From the NCBI GenBank assembly GCA_009781315.1, contig WQYI01000003.1, positions 1 to 64,000 on the forward strand: 64,000 nt of DNA, in the 5' to 3' direction. Positions 1,554-12,456 of this stretch are shown here, piece after piece (the first letter of the stretch is position 1; each line of letters opens with the position of its first letter). The notes under the pieces were generated by a model that searched no databases, was not told where the DNA came from, and saw only the letters and a program-made list of their open reading frames with translations. The translations under genes and the position numbers were made by a program. This stretch comes from Candidatus Endomicrobium embiratermitis (GTDB taxonomy: Bacteria > Elusimicrobiota > Endomicrobiia > Endomicrobiales > Endomicrobiaceae).

Positions 1554-1820
1554 TTAAATTATTTCCCAAACCCCTTTAGGACTCATGTTTAATCCGTGAG
1601 GATTTTCTTTTTTTGATGCTGGTTTCATTCTTTTTTGCTTGCGTAATTCTGTAGCTGCCCATCTTATATCATAATTCCAAGTATAAAATAAATCTCCAGA
1701 TTTCTTTAACTCTTCAGAATAAAGTTTCCAAAATTTTTTGAAAATATCTATCATTACTGCCTTACTACCAAGAGATTTTATGGTTTTATATAACAAATTG
1801 GGTAAATCTTGACGAATCAT
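1554..1820 (-). CDS. Small winged-helix-like protein (Mrr N-terminal-like)
   Basis: This is an 88-residue basic protein with a strong ribosome-binding site (GGAGG, 4 nt before ATG). It begins with a helical segment (LPNLLYKTIKSLGSKAVMIDIFKKFW in two turns), continues with WNYDIRWAATELRKQKRMKPA, and ends in SPKGVWEI. The last two blocks resemble the recognition helix and the G-x-W-x-I wing strand of the winged-helix domain at the N-terminus of Mrr-type restriction proteins. The family link is my inference from pattern. It lies 78 nt downstream of the receiver-domain gene on the same strand and is probably the last gene of that operon, where it could act as DNA-binding adaptor or repressor. No nuclease motif is visible. 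Confidence 0.6.
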   Translation of the reverse strand: MIRQDLPNLLYKTIKSLGSKAVMIDIFKKFWKLYSEELKKSGDLFYTWNYDIRWAATELRKQKRMKPASKKENPHGLNMSPKGVWEII

Positions 1821-1898: not shown

Positions 1899-3155
1899 TT
1901 AGGTATTGGTGGTGGTGTCGGCAAATAATTCTTCAGGGACTGGCATTACACCCTGTCTTACTATATACTGCGAAAATTTTTGTTGAATTTGATTAATATG
2001 AGGTGCTAATATTCGTCCAAGTATATTGTCTTTAAGTTCACTAAATTTTCTGACTTCAAATTGTGTAAAATCAAATTTAATAAACTTACTATCAATAGGC
2101 CCTATGATTTTTTCGTTTGCTTTTTCTATAAATGTTCCATGTAGAAATAAAGTTTTTTTATAGTGTTTTTTAATAATAGTACATGTCTTTTGCAGCTGCA
2201 CATTGTCAGTTATATCAGTTATAATTGATTTCAAGCAATCTGGGGTTATATCCTTAGTTCTTATAGTATTTTCTTCAATTTTTTCTCCTTCAATCAAGTA
2301 TAAAATAGGATCACTTTCTCGTGCTATGTCACATTGAGCCCTTATATTTAAAAGATATTTATTATTGTGACTGCTAAATAAATCTCCTGTATATGCATTT
2401 TCAGTAGGATTATCTTCATTATGTTTCATATATCTCTCACATTCTAAAACTTTACTTAATTCTCGCGGATGACATTCATGTCCATCACATTCAAGTATAT
2501 TGCTTTCAAATTTATAATTTTGGAGCCTAGTATTAAAATTTTTGGATATAAAATCGCCAAAACTAAATATGGCGCCATGTTCATTATCAAGTTTCATTTT
2601 TTTCCATATTTTTTGTACCCAACCTGGAGAATGTTCGTATAACTCAATAAACATATTATGCATTGTTCTATTAGCTAAACTTTCCCATTCTTTAAAAACA
2701 TAAGCTGATGGTGCACTCTCTATCCAAACTTTGAGGCAATCGAATAAACCATTTGCTTCTATGTCTGCCTTTTTTTTGATAAAAATTCTTTTGTTGCTTT
2801 GTAAATCGTCATCCAATTCATCTCTTGCTTCATCTTCTTCTTTAGTGGTAAATATAAAAACAGGGCAGAAAGTTTTCTTCAATATTTGCCTTACGAACTC
2901 TTGTTTGTTTTCATTAAAAGTTATCGGTGGTATGCCTGCTGCGGGAATCAAATTCCAATCCATTACTATAAAAGAAGCGTTTAAAAATGAATCAATAATT
3001 ACCTGTGACGGGATTGTTTTATACTCAACCACTGGAAAATCATTGGTTTTAAAATTCTCTTTGATTCTGTAAATTTCAGAATCTTCATTTTCAATTTCGT
3101 CATCAATGATTACAATGAAACCTTTTAACAGTCTCTTTAGTTCATTGATATCCAT
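1899..3155 (-). CDS. Receiver-domain protein with a long unknown output region
   Basis: This is a 418-residue protein. Residues 10 to about 130 have the landmarks of a response-regulator receiver: acidic pair D18-D19 after a hydrophobic strand (FIVIIDDE), candidate phospho-acceptor Asp66 (IVMDW), hydroxyl position Thr103/104 (VFIFTTK), and a lysine strand (RIFIKKK) near 123-129. An insertion after Asp66 makes it atypical. The remaining ~290 residues match no output domain I recognise; they contain a Cys/His patch (CDGHECHPRE) near the middle and end in an SQYIVRQGVMPVPEEL-type helix. The ATG directly follows the stop codon of the kinase gene, so the two are almost certainly co-translated and are probably cognate. 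I see neither a helix-turn-helix nor a nuclease motif. Confidence 0.7.
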   Translation of the reverse strand: MDINELKRLLKGFIVIIDDEIENEDSEIYRIKENFKTNDFPVVEYKTIPSQVIIDSFLNASFIVMDWNLIPAAGIPPITFNENKQEFVRQILKKTFCPVFIFTTKEEDEARDELDDDLQSNKRIFIKKKADIEANGLFDCLKVWIESAPSAYVFKEWESLANRTMHNMFIELYEHSPGWVQKIWKKMKLDNEHGAIFSFGDFISKNFNTRLQNYKFESNILECDGHECHPRELSKVLECERYMKHNEDNPTENAYTGDLFSSHNNKYLLNIRAQCDIARESDPILYLIEGEKIEENTIRTKDITPDCLKSIITDITDNVQLQKTCTIIKKHYKKTLFLHGTFIEKANEKIIGPIDSKFIKFDFTQFEVRKFSELKDNILGRILAPHINQIQQKFSQYIVRQGVMPVPEELFADTTTNT

Positions 3156-5384
3156 TTATTCGCCATCCTCTTTTACAAACTCCATTACAAAGTTTGCTCC
3201 ATCTAAAAGTTTGTCTTTTGAAAACTCAGCTAATTCAATCGTGTAATCATAGCGGTCTAACAATTGCCTTGCAATATATAAACCCAGTCCTCGGCCGGAT
3301 TCACCTTTACCCGAATAAAACGCTTCAAAAATATAATCTTTGTCTTCAGGTTGAATACCTGGGCCGTTATCGGAGAAAATTAAACGATTATGCTCTCCGT
3401 CTAATGTAATCAATATCTGCTTGTTTTCCATGTCTATTGTTTTCAACCAATAGTATGCATTATCAAACAAATTTATAAATAATTGTAACAAGACAGCATC
3501 TGTTGTTTTAACAATCAAAGATTGTTTAGTAGAATCTATATTACAAGTTATTTTGTTATCTTTTAGTGGATTTTTATAGAAACTATATACCTTATCAATA
3601 ATATCTTTAACATTTATATTTTTTGTCCGTTGTTTTGATGACGGGAAAAGTTTTTGTATATCTTTAAATTGCGCTTTTATAATACCCAATGTACCTAAAA
3701 TAGATAAAATTTCATCATTATAATAGCTTTTGTTAATTTCGCCAGATTGCGACAATGATTTTATTACATCCTGAGCGCGTTTTATTGTTCCGTCTAGTAA
3801 AATATTAATATCGTGAGATGCTGTTTCTATTGATAATCCAACCGCGGCTAAATCTTCTGTTTTTTTAATTCTGTCGTCATATATTTTGACTTCTTTTTCA
3901 TAAATATTTTCTAATTTACTTACATTATCGAGTAAAATTTTGTCATTAGGGTAAGTTTTTTCCACATACTGCTTCATATTACTTATCAATCCTTTAGGCT
4001 TACCAACTTTATCAAATTCTTCTTTCTTTTTTTCATTTATCAAGTATTGTGCATAATCTTTCATCCTTATATATCTTAATAATATCTGAATTATGGCTAT
4101 AAATCGTCCAAATGTACCATCTTCATCAATCAGGCCTTCTCGATTTGTTTTATCCTTAAGTTTATGATTTTTTTCTTGTGTTATGTAGATACATCCTACC
4201 ACTTGATCATTGCTTAAAAACTCATCTGCTTTTTTTGTGCCTCTTATCATATCTATTTTTAGCCAATCGTCGTTTGCATCACCATAGGGCATAACCCGAA
4301 CATCATCTCTATACAAATACACTCTATGTGGTTTTACTAAGTCTATATCACTTTTATCCAAAACACATTTCCCACGTTTAGTATTAAGGTCAAAAATGTA
4401 AAATTCAAAATTAAAATCTCCGAAGTTTGTTATGTCTTGATTAGGAAAAGCTTCTTTATAATATGTCATTCCTTTTATTTCAGAGGATGACAACTCAACC
4501 GTGCGTTCTTTACCATTCAGATTAAATACAAACTTTTGTTCTTGTTCTTTGTAAATACCGTCTTTGATTTTAAGCACAGGGCTATTGTCTAACAGATTAT
4601 GCAATCTCTCCGCACTATCGTTTACACAAGGACGTGAATTACCGTTAAAAAATATGCTTACATCAAAATCAGACTGCTTATTATGTCTAAAAATCGGTTG
4701 CATTTTACTTATTTCTCTTTGCACATTTTCTATCTTTTTTTTGCTCCAATTGCTTTTTAAATTTGTTATTTCAATTCTTGTGCCATACTGTAACCCTTTT
4801 TTACTAGTTCCACCAAATGAAACTTTTCTATCAACAAACACTTTAGGCGTGTCATGCGAAAAATTAACTTCTAAGTCGTCAATAAAAAGTTCCTTCTTAA
4901 TATTATCCTCTGAAAGAAAATCATCGTCATATTTACCGAAATTATATTCAATGCTATACTCAAACTTTCCGCCTTTCAAATCTGAAGTTTTTTTTCGTGT
5001 TGTTACTGTTACGTCTTTGCCTAACTTAAATATAGCAAACCGTCCAATACCCTTTTCACCTTGAATAAACCGCCCTTTGGGAGTTCTAGGTTTTAGGCTT
5101 TTGCCCTTTAGCTTCACAGGTGTTGCAGGATTAAGCCAAGATTTTTTTATTGTTCTTCTAGCCATCCCAAAGCCATCATCTTCAATAATAATTTTCGATG
5201 TTTCTTTGAGTGAATAGTCTTCATTGAAATCTATAAAACTAACTTTAACCCAAGAAGCATCTGCATCATACGAATTTTTAATAAGTTCAATTAAAGCAAC
5301 AGTTTCATTCGTTATTAACTGTTCACCCAACATTGTTATTAGGCGCGCATAAGGCCTTATACGTAATGGCAATGGTTTATTCAT
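3156..5384 (-). CDS. Dual-GHKL ATPase: MORC/Hsp90-like N-terminus plus histidine-kinase C-terminus
   Basis: This is a 742-residue protein with two separate GHKL (Bergerat-fold) ATP-binding modules. The first has its N box at residues 33-43 (ELIKNSYDADA), G1 box DDGFGM at 69-74 and a GEKGIGRFA lid motif at 109-117, which is the pattern of Hsp90, MutL and MORC-type ATPases. A middle region of roughly 300 residues follows, then a coiled segment, a DHp-like helix with candidate phospho-acceptor His524 (ETASHDIN), an N box near 636-643 (FINLFDNAYYW), DNGPG at 672-676 and GRGLGL near 697. It therefore combines a conformational clamp ATPase and a sensor kinase in one soluble chain with no membrane segment. 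It overlaps the methyltransferase stop by 1 nt and abuts the receiver gene, so all three form one operon. The role in defence or DNA-damage sensing is inferred. Confidence 0.85.
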   Translation of the reverse strand: MNKPLPLRIRPYARLITMLGEQLITNETVALIELIKNSYDADASWVKVSFIDFNEDYSLKETSKIIIEDDGFGMARRTIKKSWLNPATPVKLKGKSLKPRTPKGRFIQGEKGIGRFAIFKLGKDVTVTTRKKTSDLKGGKFEYSIEYNFGKYDDDFLSEDNIKKELFIDDLEVNFSHDTPKVFVDRKVSFGGTSKKGLQYGTRIEITNLKSNWSKKKIENVQREISKMQPIFRHNKQSDFDVSIFFNGNSRPCVNDSAERLHNLLDNSPVLKIKDGIYKEQEQKFVFNLNGKERTVELSSSEIKGMTYYKEAFPNQDITNFGDFNFEFYIFDLNTKRGKCVLDKSDIDLVKPHRVYLYRDDVRVMPYGDANDDWLKIDMIRGTKKADEFLSNDQVVGCIYITQEKNHKLKDKTNREGLIDEDGTFGRFIAIIQILLRYIRMKDYAQYLINEKKKEEFDKVGKPKGLISNMKQYVEKTYPNDKILLDNVSKLENIYEKEVKIYDDRIKKTEDLAAVGLSIETASHDINILLDGTIKRAQDVIKSLSQSGEINKSYYNDEILSILGTLGIIKAQFKDIQKLFPSSKQRTKNINVKDIIDKVYSFYKNPLKDNKITCNIDSTKQSLIVKTTDAVLLQLFINLFDNAYYWLKTIDMENKQILITLDGEHNRLIFSDNGPGIQPEDKDYIFEAFYSGKGESGRGLGLYIARQLLDRYDYTIELAEFSKDKLLDGANFVMEFVKEDGE

Positions 5385-6655
5385 TAGTGTTTTCTCCCAC
5401 TAATCAATAATTCTTCATGGTATATTTGACGCTGTTCCTTATCAGTAGTAAACTTACCATTACTATCCCTATAAGGTGTCAATAATTTATTAGATATTTT
5501 ACGTCTATCAATTTTAATATCGTCTAAGCCACAGTCCATCATTGCTTCCACCAAATGTCTAGAATTTTCAATTTTTATACCTTTGAATTCTGTATTACCT
5601 ACTACAAAAAATACCATGCCATTTTTTTTCAACATTTTAGTGCACTTTTTTACTACTTTCTGCATATCTTCATAGTAACGAGCCACAGATTTCACTCTTG
5701 ATTTGCTTTTCATAACTTCAATTAAATCTTTAACTATTTGTTGTCCTTTTGAGTTCAACTTTAGGCCTTCAAGTTTTAAATTTTCGCTATTATGCATACT
5801 TCCAATAGTACCTTTTCTATAAGTTTTATAGTCGTCGGTATAATCTAACCATAGGGTTGATAATTGATGCAAATCCGCATATTCATAGGATGTTGCATAT
5901 GGCGGACTACTTACTATTAGATCTACCTTGGGAATATTTTTTAATGTCAAAAAATTTCCTGTTTGTATATTATATGTTTTAGACTGTTCTTTATCGCTGT
6001 TGTTTTCACTTGATTTGACAAATTTATTATATTGCTTCTTGAAAGCATCTTCAGGATTCATTGGTATTTTATTTGGATCTATTTGTGGCTTAATAGATTT
6101 AGATAACCATCTTGAGGTTGATTTCAAAATAGCTGAAAAAATACAAAGAAAAGCATCTCTATATTTACCTTTTGGTACGTTATTTATGGCATTTTTTATT
6201 TTTAGCAAACTCAAATATTTATGTTCGTCAAACCAGTACTGTAGACGTTCATTGGCATTAATGTAAGATTCTGGGCTGCAGTCTGCTTCTACAATTGTTT
6301 CAAGGATTCTTGTATAGTACTTATTTAAAACATTAATATTGTAATTTCCACTTTTTACACGAGCTATCAGGGTAGCAACAGGATTTATGTCACATCCCCA
6401 AAAACTATAATTATGTAATTTGGCTTCCAATGCCACCGTACCGCAACCACAGAAGATATCTGCAACTGATTTCACATCAACATTCTCTTTTCTTGCATAA
6501 TCAAATACTTTTGAGGCAATAAAGGCAGGAAATTTCGCAGGATATGCGTGTATGTTGTGCATATTGTTTTCTTTTTCATTACCAAAATTCCAATCAGCAT
6601 TTATTTCAACTTGAAAAGAATCTTGGTTAACATATTCTTTGCCAACTTTATTCAT
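5384..6655 (-). CDS. DNA methyltransferase (amino-MTase, SPPY type)
   Basis: This is a 423-residue soluble protein. SAM-binding motif I (ADIFCGCG, residues 66-72) precedes catalytic motif IV SPPY (250-253), and a conserved N-terminal block HNIHAYPAKFPAF (33-45) is typical of this group of site-specific DNA methyltransferases. SPPY is most often found in cytosine-N4 enzymes, but adenine-N6 activity is possible. The region between motif I and SPPY (about 90-245) probably holds the target-recognition part. It is the first gene of the operon (GAGG 6 nt before ATG) and overlaps the kinase gene by one base. No adjacent restriction endonuclease is recognisable, so this is either a restriction-modification-like system with an unrecognised effector or a marking system read by the kinase/receiver pair. 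Confidence 0.85.
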   Translation of the reverse strand: MNKVGKEYVNQDSFQVEINADWNFGNEKENNMHNIHAYPAKFPAFIASKVFDYARKENVDVKSVADIFCGCGTVALEAKLHNYSFWGCDINPVATLIARVKSGNYNINVLNKYYTRILETIVEADCSPESYINANERLQYWFDEHKYLSLLKIKNAINNVPKGKYRDAFLCIFSAILKSTSRWLSKSIKPQIDPNKIPMNPEDAFKKQYNKFVKSSENNSDKEQSKTYNIQTGNFLTLKNIPKVDLIVSSPPYATSYEYADLHQLSTLWLDYTDDYKTYRKGTIGSMHNSENLKLEGLKLNSKGQQIVKDLIEVMKSKSRVKSVARYYEDMQKVVKKCTKMLKKNGMVFFVVGNTEFKGIKIENSRHLVEAMMDCGLDDIKIDRRKISNKLLTPYRDSNGKFTTDKEQRQIYHEELLISGRKH

Positions 6656-7107: not shown

Positions 7108-7960
7108 TCACTGCGGTATTTGTTCAGGTGTTCCATTGTATTTTAATATCACTCTTTGCCTATTGTAATATAACGCATATTCATCTATTAAATCTTTTGT
7201 TTCTTGTAATGTCTTTGGTTTTCTTGCATACAAACATTCTGTCTTTAATGAACTAAAAAAACTTTCTATTGGCGCATTGTCTTTTGGCATCGCTGGTGCT
7301 GACATTGACAAGTCTATCTTATTCTCTCGTGCAATTTTCGCATATGCTAATCCGCTATATTGAAATCCTCGGTCGCTATGTAATAACGTTTCTTTCTCTT
7401 CCTTCTTTTGCCGTAATGCTGATTTTATCGTCTCTAATACCAAATTAACATTATTGTTCGTTGAATATTTATAACTTACTAATTCTCTCCTATGACAATC
7501 TAGTAATGCTGATATATATATATTACTCCTTCTTTACACTTATACTCTGTTATGTCCGTTAGCCACACTTTGTCCTGTTCTTTTTGGTCAAACTTTCTAT
7601 TTAGCTTATTCTCGTATATGTTTATGAACTTTTCACCAAAACTTTTGTAATTACTGCTCTTTTTCCTTCTTATCTTGCTTAATAAATTATATTTTACCAT
7701 CACCCTATATATCTTCTTATGGTTTATCTTTTTTTCTCTTCCTCTATTTATCTCAAAACTTACTTTCCTATATCCGTAACTCTCTTTAAACCCTTTCTTT
7801 ATCTCTTTTATTTCTTTATATAATTCTTCGTCGCATTCTTCTTTCTTTTCTATATTCTTATGCTTGTAATATCCACTCTCAGATACTCCCAATTCTTTAC
7901 ATAAATCTCTTACTCTATACTTCTCTCTTAACTTCTCTTTACCTGCAAATTTTACTTTTT
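7108..7960 (-). pseudogene. IS3 transposase orfB (DDE integrase core), frameshifted
   Basis: Two frames join into one IS3 orfB product. The upstream part contains SESGYYKH, SYGYRKV and the first catalytic Asp in VWLTDITEY. The downstream part contains the second Asp in LLHSDRGFQYSG and the Glu in PIESFFSSLK, ending near YYNRQR. The break lies at 7510-7522, in a (TA)n run of the codons for VIYI: a 2-nt change shifts the frame and creates a stop. With those 2 nt removed the reading continues through a normal ISALLDCHRRELVSY stretch. Upstream, orfB lies in the -1 frame relative to orfA and would be expressed by slippage on the A9 run at about 7957-7965. Confidence 0.85.
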
Positions 7961-8233
7961 TTTTGACAATTCACTTAATACCTTCTGAATATCCCTCAAC
8001 ATCTTGTTCTCTCTCTCTAATCTCTTTATCTTCTCTTCTATACACTCTTTTCCCTTTTTCTTACTTTCAAAACTTTCTATTCCTCTTTCTCTATATCTGT
8101 TACTTATTCTCACTATTGTCCTTTGGCATACTCCATACTCTCTCGCCAATTCATTTGTTGACTTACCTTCTTCAAACCTTTTTACACATACTTCTTTCTT
8201 TTTTTCGTTACTTAACTTCTTTGCCTCTTTCAT
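7952..8233 (-). CDS. IS3 transposase orfA (DNA-binding subunit)
   Basis: This is a 93-residue basic protein with a ribosome-binding site AAAGGAG about 8 nt before ATG. It has a helix-turn-helix (STNELAREYGVCQRTIVRI, about residues 25-43) and a C-terminal heptad-like segment (IEEKIKRLERENKMLRDIQ), the usual IS3 orfA architecture for binding the terminal repeats and dimerising. It ends in KKK-stop on the A-rich slippery site, where -1 slippage would fuse it to orfB. It appears intact, but its partner frame is broken. Confidence 0.85.
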   Translation of the reverse strand: MKEAKKLSNEKKKEVCVKRFEEGKSTNELAREYGVCQRTIVRISNRYRERGIESFESKKKGKECIEEKIKRLERENKMLRDIQKVLSELSKKK

Positions 8234-8312
8234 GTGGTTTCTCCTTTTTTCATTATACCACATGACTCTTTCTATTCTCTACTTTCTTGGGGGCAGTTCA
8301 ACGTCCCCTTGA

Positions 8313-9441: not shown

Positions 9442-10458
9442 TTATATGTAAGATGCTGAAGATTTTCTGACAGCAATATCTTGTATATTAAAGCCATTAG
9501 TAATCAAGAATTTATGAATATTTGGTATAGCAACACTGCACTTTGGCCCTAAAATTATTTCATTGATTAGATTACCATGTTTTGAATTAGTGCTTAATGG
9601 ATATTTATAATAAGAAACTATGTCTCTGCCGTTATAGTAGTAATCATAATTTAACGTACATTTATCTTTTTTGAGACATTTGTCTTTTTCATTACATTCA
9701 GCGCCAATATTGTAATACATGCGCCATTCCAATTCTTCTTTAAATGCCGGGTTTTTATATATTTTCATTTTTTCTAATAAAATATCTAACAGGGCTTTGT
9801 TATCAATATTTAAAAGTATATTCATTAAAAATTTGTCGAGAATATCTCCGATATCATTATTAAGATCTTTGTTTGCATCAACATATAACATTTCTACAGA
9901 TTGTATCTTTTTGTTTTCTGTATCCAATAATGACTTAGTATTGAAACCAATAGACACACCCTTCCCATCATCAGCATATGCTCTCCATTGGCTTAATATA
10001 TCTCCTGTAAGTGAAAAACAAGCAATATGTCCAATACTTACATTTTTTATTAATGTTTCTTTAATATAACTGTAAAAATTTTTATGCATTTGTATTTTTT
10101 GATTTTTATATTGATCAAATGTTGTCGGAAATGAGCTTTTATATAATTTAGCCTTAGTAATAAATTCATTGAATGCTTCTTTTTGAATACCTAACTTATC
10201 AAATTCTTCTTTTATATTGTCTTCAAAATTTTCGCTTAAGATAATTTTATTACTGTTTTCGTATTCTGTCTTTAGAATTTCCGGATTTTTCTCTATATTA
10301 TTTATCGCATCACTAATAATAATCATAATAATTTTGATTGTATAAATTAATTCTTCAGAGTCATTTGTCGTAAGCATATTTGTCAACCACAATTCACGAC
10401 TTTTTATTATTTTCATAAAATTATCCACGCTACAATAATGATAAACAGTATTTGTCAT
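9442..10458 (-). CDS. DUF2971 family protein
   Basis: This is a 338-residue soluble protein with GGGAG 8 nt before ATG. It opens with VYHYCSVDNFMKIIKSRELWLTN, in which the YHY/W pattern is typical of DUF2971. The middle holds the diagnostic block ACFSLTGDILSQWRAYADDGKGVSIGF and the end has EIILGPKCS. The family has a fold related to ADP-ribosyl-type or toxin-like domains and is frequent in defence islands; its biochemical activity is not established. A Cys-rich stretch (CNEKDKCLKKDKC) near residue 265 is unusual and could bind metal. It probably forms an operon with the DUF5677-like gene downstream. Confidence 0.8.
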   Translation of the reverse strand: MTNTVYHYCSVDNFMKIIKSRELWLTNMLTTNDSEELIYTIKIIMIIISDAINNIEKNPEILKTEYENSNKIILSENFEDNIKEEFDKLGIQKEAFNEFITKAKLYKSSFPTTFDQYKNQKIQMHKNFYSYIKETLIKNVSIGHIACFSLTGDILSQWRAYADDGKGVSIGFNTKSLLDTENKKIQSVEMLYVDANKDLNNDIGDILDKFLMNILLNIDNKALLDILLEKMKIYKNPAFKEELEWRMYYNIGAECNEKDKCLKKDKCTLNYDYYYNGRDIVSYYKYPLSTNSKHGNLINEIILGPKCSVAIPNIHKFLITNGFNIQDIAVRKSSASYI

Positions 10459-10785: not shown

Positions 10786-11670
10786 ATGTTCTACAGAAAA
10801 AAAATATTATTAAATTTGCTTGACGCCTTTGGCGGCAAATTGGATAAAATTTCTTTTACAAAACTCTTATTTCTCTTTTGTGTATCCAATGAAAAAAATC
10901 GGCAGTATGAATTTGTTCCGTATCAATACGGAGCTTTTTCTTTTACTGCGTATTCCGATATAAATGGACTAAAAAGAGAAGGTATGGTTTATGAAGGCGA
11001 TAATTATTTTGCATTGCAGCAATTTGATAAGCAATCCTATAAAATAACTGAAGATGATAATGAAAGAATTGACAGCCTTTACCGGCAGTTTAATGGTAAA
11101 ACTTCTGATGATTTGATGGAAATAACCTATGCAAATTATCCATACTATGCCAAAAATAGTAAAAAGAAAGATCTAATAACGGCAGAAATAAAAAATGCTA
11201 TTAAGACCGCTATTTCAGAAGATAATAGTACAACTTTGTTTGATATTGGTTATGAGGGCAAAAGTCTGGAAGCATATCTGAATTTATTGATAACAAACAA
11301 TATAAAAACTCTTGTTGATGTAAGAAAAAATCCTATAAGTATGAAATACGGGTTTTCTAAAGGCTTTTTGTCAAAAAGAACCAACGACTTAGGTATTGAA
11401 TACCTCCATGTTCCCGAACTTGGTATAGAATCAGACAAGAGGCAATCTTTAAACTCTTTTGAAGATTATCAAAATCTATTTGCAAATTATGAAGACACTA
11501 CATTAAAAAGAAATATTAAAAGCGTAGAAAAAGTTCACGACATTTTAATGCAAGATAGAAGAATTGCGCTTACCTGCTTTGAGGCTGATAAAAATTACTG
11601 TCATAGATATAGAGTGGTCAATTGTATAAATAATCTTTATCCTAATGAATTTGAAACGGAACATTTATAA
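10786..11670 (+). CDS. Panacea-like / DUF488 fusion protein
   Basis: This is a 294-residue protein in two parts. Residues 1 to about 110 (KISFTKLLFLFC, FVPYQYGAFSF, LKREGMV) resemble Panacea/DUF4065-type antitoxin domains. Residues about 150-290 form a DUF488 domain: LFDIGYEGKSLEAYLNLL, LVDVRKNPISMKYGFSK, then ALTCFEADKNYCHRYRV, the conserved C-x-E-x(6)-CHR signature. DUF488 function is unproven; the Cys and His pattern suggests a catalytic or metal site. No ribosome-binding site is evident and a TAATAT box is only 6 nt upstream, so the mRNA may be leaderless. It is followed without a gap by the KTYP-motif gene. Family calls are from motif memory. Confidence 0.75.
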   Translation: MFYRKKILLNLLDAFGGKLDKISFTKLLFLFCVSNEKNRQYEFVPYQYGAFSFTAYSDINGLKREGMVYEGDNYFALQQFDKQSYKITEDDNERIDSLYRQFNGKTSDDLMEITYANYPYYAKNSKKKDLITAEIKNAIKTAISEDNSTTLFDIGYEGKSLEAYLNLLITNNIKTLVDVRKNPISMKYGFSKGFLSKRTNDLGIEYLHVPELGIESDKRQSLNSFEDYQNLFANYEDTTLKRNIKSVEKVHDILMQDRRIALTCFEADKNYCHRYRVVNCINNLYPNEFETEHL

Positions 11671-12456
11671 ATGAAAGAAACAAAGAAAATCCTTATAACC
11701 GTTAAAACCTATCCGACTCCTTCAAAAAAATATGATGAACTTGTCTGTACAGCTGGTATTACTGAAGATGGCAAATGGATTAGATTATATCCAATAGAAT
11801 TTAGAAAACTTCCTTATGATAAACAATATAAAAAGTATGATTGGGTTGAAGTTGTAGTAGAAAGAAATGATTCTGATTTCAGAAAAGAAAGTTTTAGACC
11901 TATAAGCGAATGTAAGATAGTGAAAAGTATTGGGACTGAAAATAATTGGGCTGAAAGACGTGCAGTTTTAAAGAACGTAAAAACCTATACAAATCTAAAA
12001 AAGTTGATTGCTGATTCAAAAACGCCAAACTTTAAATCTTTAGCATTATTTAAACCAACAAAAATAATAGATTTTATTTATGAAGAACAAGACCCTAATT
12101 GGAGCAGAGAAGAAAATAAGCAACTTGAGCTGTTTTTTTCAAAAGATTTTAAACGCGTAGAAAAATTACCGTTTAAGTTTAAGTATGTCTTTGAAGACGA
12201 TGAAGGTAAAACATCTAAACTATCTATTACAGATTGGGAAATTGGTGCGTTGTTTTTAAAATATAAGAAAGACCATAAATTAGCTTGTCAAAAAGTCAAA
12301 GAAAAATATTTTGATGACTTTGCTCACAAGAAAGATTTACATTTCTTTTTAGGCACAACAAAAGACCATCACAATACCGCAAGAAATCCATTCATTATCA
12401 TCGGTACTTTTCATCCAAACAAAACTGTAGAAGATAAGCAGGGAATATTGTTTTAA
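11671..12456 (+). CDS. KTYP-motif protein of the DUF488 cassette, unknown function
   Basis: This is a 261-residue basic soluble protein whose ATG immediately follows the stop codon of the DUF488-fusion gene, so translation is coupled. The N-terminus has KKILITVKTYPTPSKKYDELVCTAGI and GKWIRLYPIEFR, a small barrel-like region that I have seen associated with DUF488 partners but cannot name. Further on come WAERR, FKPTKI and a C-terminal FFLGTTKDHHNTARNPFIIIGTFHP, whose conserved-looking His residues could be functional. No helix-turn-helix or nuclease motif is obvious. I infer that the two proteins act together. Confidence 0.6.
   Translation: MKETKKILITVKTYPTPSKKYDELVCTAGITEDGKWIRLYPIEFRKLPYDKQYKKYDWVEVVVERNDSDFRKESFRPISECKIVKSIGTENNWAERRAVLKNVKTYTNLKKLIADSKTPNFKSLALFKPTKIIDFIYEEQDPNWSREENKQLELFFSKDFKRVEKLPFKFKYVFEDDEGKTSKLSITDWEIGALFLKYKKDHKLACQKVKEKYFDDFAHKKDLHFFLGTTKDHHNTARNPFIIIGTFHPNKTVEDKQGILF

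Follow-up and report, generated by a model that had tools for sequence, protein, structure and literature searches.

Near the start of a 64,000-nucleotide stretch of Candidatus Endomicrobium embiratermitis DNA (contig WQYI01000003.1; the window, below), the last gene of a short operon encodes a response-regulator-like protein of 418 amino acids (aa). An earlier note, made from the sequence alone, had singled it out as a receiver domain fused to a region with no recognisable output. The protein is almost certainly built of a receiver, a helical linker and a domain with the fold of the toxin MazF, and its operon, which also encodes a DNA methylase and a soluble histidine kinase, is strictly conserved as a set of three genes. 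We tentatively favour the view, which we hold to be somewhat short of an even chance, that the three genes form a methylation-gated two-component defence system, with a MazF-fold effector that causes growth arrest of the RNase type.

Such a system would resemble restriction-modification (R-M), with a two-component phosphorelay in place of the restriction enzyme. The methylase would mark the host's own DNA, and the N-terminal MutL/MORC-type GHKL module of the kinase would serve as an ATP-driven clamp on DNA. On unmarked DNA, for example incoming phage DNA, the C-terminal histidine-kinase module would fire, and phosphate would pass from H524 of the kinase to D66 of the receiver. Receiver phosphorylation might then release or dimerise the MazF-fold domain, most likely an RNA nuclease that halts growth and phage production, with a pocket that may be built from GD257-258, N270/R272, C275-D276 and R400. 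We favour this reading because the three-gene operon is obligatory, because the His-Asp relay and the ATP sites are invariant, and because the output domain has a predicted MazF/Kid/CcdB fold. It is further suggested by the exchange of methylase types beside related kinase-receiver pairs, by the likeness of the kinase N-terminus to the HgiDII/BbrUII restriction enzymes, and, as regards defence, by a patchy spread over many phyla, carriage on plasmids and in IMG/VR, and a low-GC island with PADLOC candidates.

An obligatory operon with invariant residues of a predicted phosphorelay

A tblastn search found one copy of the receiver protein on an Allorhizobium plasmid, one on a human-faecal contig and two within the window's own family. 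A single-protein query of viral contigs gave no match, but an alignment query of the same contigs did, and a five-sequence profile search recovered 56 loci (one genome per species) and two more in IMG/VR. The homologues come from Clostridia, Bacilli, Bacteroidota, Alpha-, Beta-, Gamma- and Deltaproteobacteria, Verrucomicrobia, Planctomycetota, Holophagales, Nitrospirales, Patescibacteria, Actinomycetes, Cloacimonadota, Omnitrophota, Dadabacteria, Binatia and Gastranaerophilales, and, on the archaeal side, from one Euryarchaeota metagenome-assembled genome.

Methylase, kinase and receiver protein follow one another in this order and on one strand in 53 of 61 distinct loci, the window included; the remaining eight are truncated by contig ends, so that all 53 uncut loci carry all three genes. 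Neighbouring genes overlap by 1 nucleotide or abut in the window, and overlap or lie within 10 bp of each other in most loci. Where, then, would a harmful activity reside? Clustering of the neighbouring open reading frames (ORFs) of at least 80 aa revealed no further gene, a nuclease for example, that is kept across the loci, and any such activity must therefore lie in the kinase or the receiver protein.

The commonest extra neighbours are downstream C5 methylases (L015, L048, L051 and L059). In addition, at least nine loci, mostly of Alpha- and Gammaproteobacteria (L005, L044, L052-L054, L056, L057, L060 and L098), have another methylase near the operon, divergent, about 390-420 aa long and on the opposite strand. 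This hints that the recognition site is asymmetric; in type II systems, asymmetric sites go with a second methylase.

The residues on which a phosphorelay would depend are strictly kept. Among 56 aligned receiver proteins, D18, D66 and K129 are present in every one, as is W67; position 19 is D, E or N (47/2/7) and position 103 is T or S (39/17). The acid pair, phospho-acceptor Asp, Thr and Lys that the earlier note had read from the single sequence thus hold across the family. The receiver model is a (beta-alpha)5, CheY-like fold (VIA-align Z about 11.9 to PmrA and CheY structures). H524-D525 is invariant in 53 kinases, as are the motifs of the N-terminal GHKL module and, in the C-terminal ATPase, the N and G boxes, and a profile comparison matches residues 476-707 to solved histidine kinases (LvrB, 2e-19). 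A working phosphorelay between kinase and receiver protein is therefore well supported by the sequences. The FCGCGT and SPPY motifs of the methylase are likewise invariant, in 49 homologues.

The other end of the kinase, residues 17-244, resembles the restriction enzymes BbrUII and HgiDII with an E-value of 1.2e-17, a match far under the model's equivalog cut-off. Could the operon encode a restriction enzyme in two parts, one per gene? The kinase would then clamp and recognise unmethylated sites, and the phosphorylated MazF-fold domain would cut or nick that same DNA, so that only foreign DNA is harmed. This would suit a methylase that is always present, sometimes with a second one, as well as the likeness to HgiDII/BbrUII, and GHKL ATPases of the paraMORC type are indeed located, and work, in R-M operons (Iyer et al. 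2008, PMC2292703). However, no restriction endonuclease or nuclease family scored above cut-off in the kinase or the receiver protein in Pfam, PADLOC and NCBIfam, and the Pfam and NCBIfam scans showed no known DNase motif in either. A phosphorelay would also be an odd route to targeting cleavage in cis, and relatives of MazF cleave RNA. We consider a split restriction enzyme unlikely.

The output domain of the receiver protein

The roughly 280 aa beyond the receiver scored above cut-off with no model of Pfam, PADLOC, NCBIfam or PHROGs, in keeping with the earlier note's failure to recognise an output. A Pfam match to Tox-ODYAM1 at residues 151-196 (E 0.06) is below cut-off and was treated as chance. 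The fold was more telling. AlphaFold2 modelled the full protein, with 56 homologues in the alignment, at pLDDT 91.6 and pTM 0.83, and residues 137-418 alone at pLDDT 91.8 and pTM 0.81. Compared with VIA-align, the full model matches MazF at Z 12.1 (2.8 Å over 102 residues) beside CheY-type receivers. The best 50 Protein Data Bank entries for the C-terminal model are all MazF, Kid or CcdB, led by a match at Z 12.3 with a root-mean-square deviation of 2.5 Å over 99 of 105 residues and another at Z 12.2, also 2.5 Å, over 100 of 106 residues, and with CcdB structures reaching Z 11.4. Foldseek also ranks the MazF family top, with a probability of about 1.0, and a viral library gave PemK-like proteins. 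Residues 252 to about 402 are thus confidently predicted to adopt the MazF/Kid/CcdB toxin fold. The preceding helical segment (137-251) gave no structural match in a comparison that was barely more than cursory.

Other output types had been proposed for comparison. HEPN, TIR, NADase, PglZ and PD-(D/E)xK folds are all missing from the best Foldseek and VIA-align matches of the C-terminal model, an absence from those matches that is not an exclusion. The PglZ response regulator PorX matched through its receiver portion only.

In the output domain, G257, D258, C275, D276, P385, R400 and P407 are invariant in the 56 sequences, and N270 (55/56), R272 (54/56), R378 (54/56) and R381 (52/56) nearly so, position 378 being I in the window copy. 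The conserved polar positions that the earlier note had asked for are those of GD(257-258), NxRxxCD(270-276) and R400, and the C-terminal helix that it described as conserved-looking (residues 386-400) is conserved among homologues. Its other landmark, a CDGHECHPRE patch at residues 223-232, falls in a variable segment in which only E232 is loosely kept, and is rejected as an active site. Nor is the fold new, as the note had suggested it might be, MazF/Kid/CcdB being predicted instead; an effector role remains likely, because the fold is of a type found in effectors and conserved polar residues exist.

Several observations weigh against an RNA nuclease triggered by unmarked DNA. The Foldseek E-values for the MazF family are weak (0.02-0.2), and sequence similarity to PemK/MazF was found neither with PF02452 in Pfam nor in two comparisons with profiles from 14 PemK proteins. 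The MazF assignment is for this reason a fold-level statement about a predicted model. No counterpart of the catalytic Arg and Thr of MazF could be mapped, and the conserved polar set differs; these conserved residues might take the place of the MazF active site. CcdB has the same fold as MazF and no nuclease activity. The activity of the output domain is thus a prediction, and DNA sensing by the kinase is suggested only by analogy.

Considering that the CcdB match nearly equals that of MazF, the domain might instead be a non-catalytic, CcdB-like poison that binds a host or phage target, such as gyrase or a polymerase, upon receiver phosphorylation. The missing PemK signature would agree with this, as would the variation of the residue after C275, which in relatives further off can be N, E or H. 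Strict conservation of GD, NxRxxCD and R400 in 56 diverse proteins, however, is more suggestive of a pocket that acts on or binds a small group, for example a nucleotide, and a poison of this kind seems quite improbable to us.

Most response regulators are transcription factors, and the domain could also bind nucleic acid or a protein and so, on receipt of a signal, adjust the expression of the methylase operon or of other genes. A related gene pair is reported to be up-regulated under stress (Bellieny-Rabelo et al. 2021, PMC8011034). Against such a conventional regulator, Pfam and VIA-align detected no helix-turn-helix or other DNA-binding domain, and the patchy spread on plasmids and in IMG/VR is easier to reconcile with defence or addiction than with housekeeping regulation. 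We regard it as very unlikely, and retain the methylation-gated defence system with an RNase-type effector as the favoured explanation.

The setting in the window

Positions 1-12 kb of the window have a GC content of about 28-35%, as against about 36-43% beyond 13 kb, and are probably a small acquired island with candidate defence genes (Table 1). The defence setting that the earlier note assumed is borne out by the methylase and GHKL ATPase genes directly upstream and by PADLOC candidate-defence matches within 10 kb of the receiver gene. The IS3-type pieces are probably what is left of a disrupted insertion sequence. An 88-aa ORF that closely follows the receiver gene has no Pfam match above cut-off; its sole relative in the fetched loci (L154, 8407..8655; E 6e-17) lies near a related operon.

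Table 1. Features of the operon and its surroundings, in window coordinates
Feature	Position	Strand	Basis
Response-regulator-like protein, 418 aa	1899..3155	-	ORF from ATG at 3155 to stop at 1899; last gene of operon
Receiver domain, residues 1-136	2748..3155	-	AlphaFold2 model; VIA-align matches to CheY/PmrA
D66, predicted phospho-acceptor	2958..2960	-	Invariant, 56/56
Helical linker, residues 137-251, W144/W157/W179 conserved	2403..2747	-	C-terminal model; homologue conservation
Predicted MazF/CcdB-fold output domain, residues 252-418	1902..2402	-	VIA-align Z 12.2-12.3 to MazF-mt3; Foldseek top matches all MazF
NxRxxCD motif, residues 270-276	2328..2348	-	C275, D276 56/56; N270 55/56; R272 54/56
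Soluble kinase with two GHKL ATPase modules, 742 aa	3156..5384	-	HATPase_c_3 and HATPase_c; ATP-site motifs invariant in 53 homologues
Kinase N-terminal GHKL (HATPase_c_3), residues 28-134, proposed DNA clamp/sensor	4983..5303	-	Pfam E 4e-20
H524, predicted phosphorylated histidine, SHD motif	3813..3815	-	Invariant in 53 kinases
Kinase C-terminal histidine-kinase ATPase domain, residues 632-723	3216..3491	-	Pfam E 4e-17
DNA methylase, 423 aa, N6_N4_Mtase type, FCGCGT and SPPY motifs	5384..6655	-	Pfam PF01555 E 6e-14; PADLOC MTase_II E 4e-40
88-aa ORF just downstream of receiver gene, winged-helix-like by eye	1554..1820	-	ORF list
IS3-like transposase pieces over three ORFs	7108..8263	-	Reading of ORF translations
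DUF2971 protein, weakly similar to PADLOC PDC-S31	9442..10458	-	Pfam, PADLOC
PDC-M19A/M19B pair, complete, including DUF488 domain	10786..12456	+	PADLOC phage-defence candidate, E about 1e-104

Known systems and a wider family

The closest parallel is the Response_reg_2 (PF19192)/HEF_HK (PF19191) pair, in which a soluble kinase with HATPase_c_3 and HATPase_c likewise adjoins a receiver gene and has a methylase neighbour (PMC8011034); the window kinase has HATPase_c_3, DHp and HATPase_c. No domain besides the receiver was found in Response_reg_2 proteins (Bellieny-Rabelo et al. 2021, PMC8011034). Both kinds of receiver protein have a common C-terminal GxxF...CD...RxG motif, and a profile comparison of five Response_reg_2 proteins with the window family aligns the CD at E 2e-4 and a probability of 45%. 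The two are distinct in that the methylase is of the N4/N6 type in the window and C5 in the known pair, and the receiver protein has 418 aa as against 570-629. At E 0.1 the window receiver does not match PF19192 (one homologue does at E 0.012, below cut-off), and the window kinase shows only HATPase_c_3 and HATPase_c, with no match to PF19191. No PF19192 member was found in the window's phylum or in eight homologue genomes, where the controls gave no signal either; members are present in the order of Luteimonas.

Detocs is also a three-gene defence operon, one that uses a histidine kinase together with an effector linked to a receiver (PMC11249213). In its best-described form the effector is a PNP that degrades ATP, whereas the window protein has no PNP domain in Pfam and a MazF-like fold instead; unlike Detocs, the window system has a DNA methylase as obligatory partner. 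The paraMORC, BbrUII, HgiDII and GHKL-Shedu proteins have, like the window kinase, an N-terminal GHKL module beside methylases that is thought to sense or manipulate DNA (PMC2292703, PMC12137116). The paraMORC/GHKL-Shedu group acts through fused or neighbouring nucleases, whereas in the window the module forms one protein with a histidine kinase and would signal to a separate effector. Compared with MazF/PemK (PF02452) and CcdB, with which residues 252-402 have their predicted fold in common, the window domain is fused to a receiver, has different conserved residues and is accompanied by no recognised antitoxin gene among the clustered neighbours of at least 80 aa. The open-licence literature searched held no description of a MazF-fold response regulator; a figure legend of the DefensePredictor study (2026, PMC13092281) places HATPase and REC domains among predicted, unvalidated systems.

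The output domain extends beyond this family. A profile of the domain alone, iterated over 5130 ORFs, also recovers receiver proteins whose operons are plainly of another kind (L111, L127, L139, L143, L144 and L149; E 1e-10 to 1e-20). A kinase profile scan of IMG/VR found 65 loci (L099-L163), of which 60 have a same-strand gene directly downstream; in most of the 65 the kinase gene stands between a methylase-type gene, upstream, and a receiver-like gene, downstream, and their membership in IMG/VR suggests prophage carriage. By a simple search for C-[DNEH] together with a terminal R-x-G/A, 27 of the 60 downstream genes have the motif, a few of them doubtful, as do all three Response_reg_2 plasmid proteins tested. 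The upstream methylases tested in IMG/VR were C5 (L106, L143), Eco57I-type N6 (L130, L133, L160) and N4/N6-like (L139, weak); the upstream gene of L129 gave no match. The kinase-receiver pair is kept although the chemistry of methylation varies, as would suit a device that senses whether a mark is there or not.

Two further receiver classes were seen beside such kinases (L130, L147, L152, L154 and L160; L145 and L161). One has another unannotated C-terminal region in place of the MazF-fold motif, with a Trp-Trp motif in several of its proteins; the other is short, at 209-228 aa.

The window operon may thus belong to a widespread, mobile restriction class, a generalisation that we hold to be a little less likely than not. 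In this class a dual-GHKL kinase would read methylation and relay it from His to Asp to a MazF-fold effector, the state of methylation and phosphorylation would replace the antitoxin, and both methylase chemistry and output domain would be swapped between lineages. If so, many genomes and mobile elements would carry an effector domain that has escaped annotation. Response_reg_2/HEF_HK pairs were reported next to R-M genes in 2021 and have lacked a recognised output since; the MazF/CcdB fold offers a concrete and testable one, and predicts that phosphorylation triggers a toxicity which the methylase holds down. Were this right, three systems that are usually separate, namely restriction-modification, signalling by two components and toxin-antitoxin action, would be joined in one.
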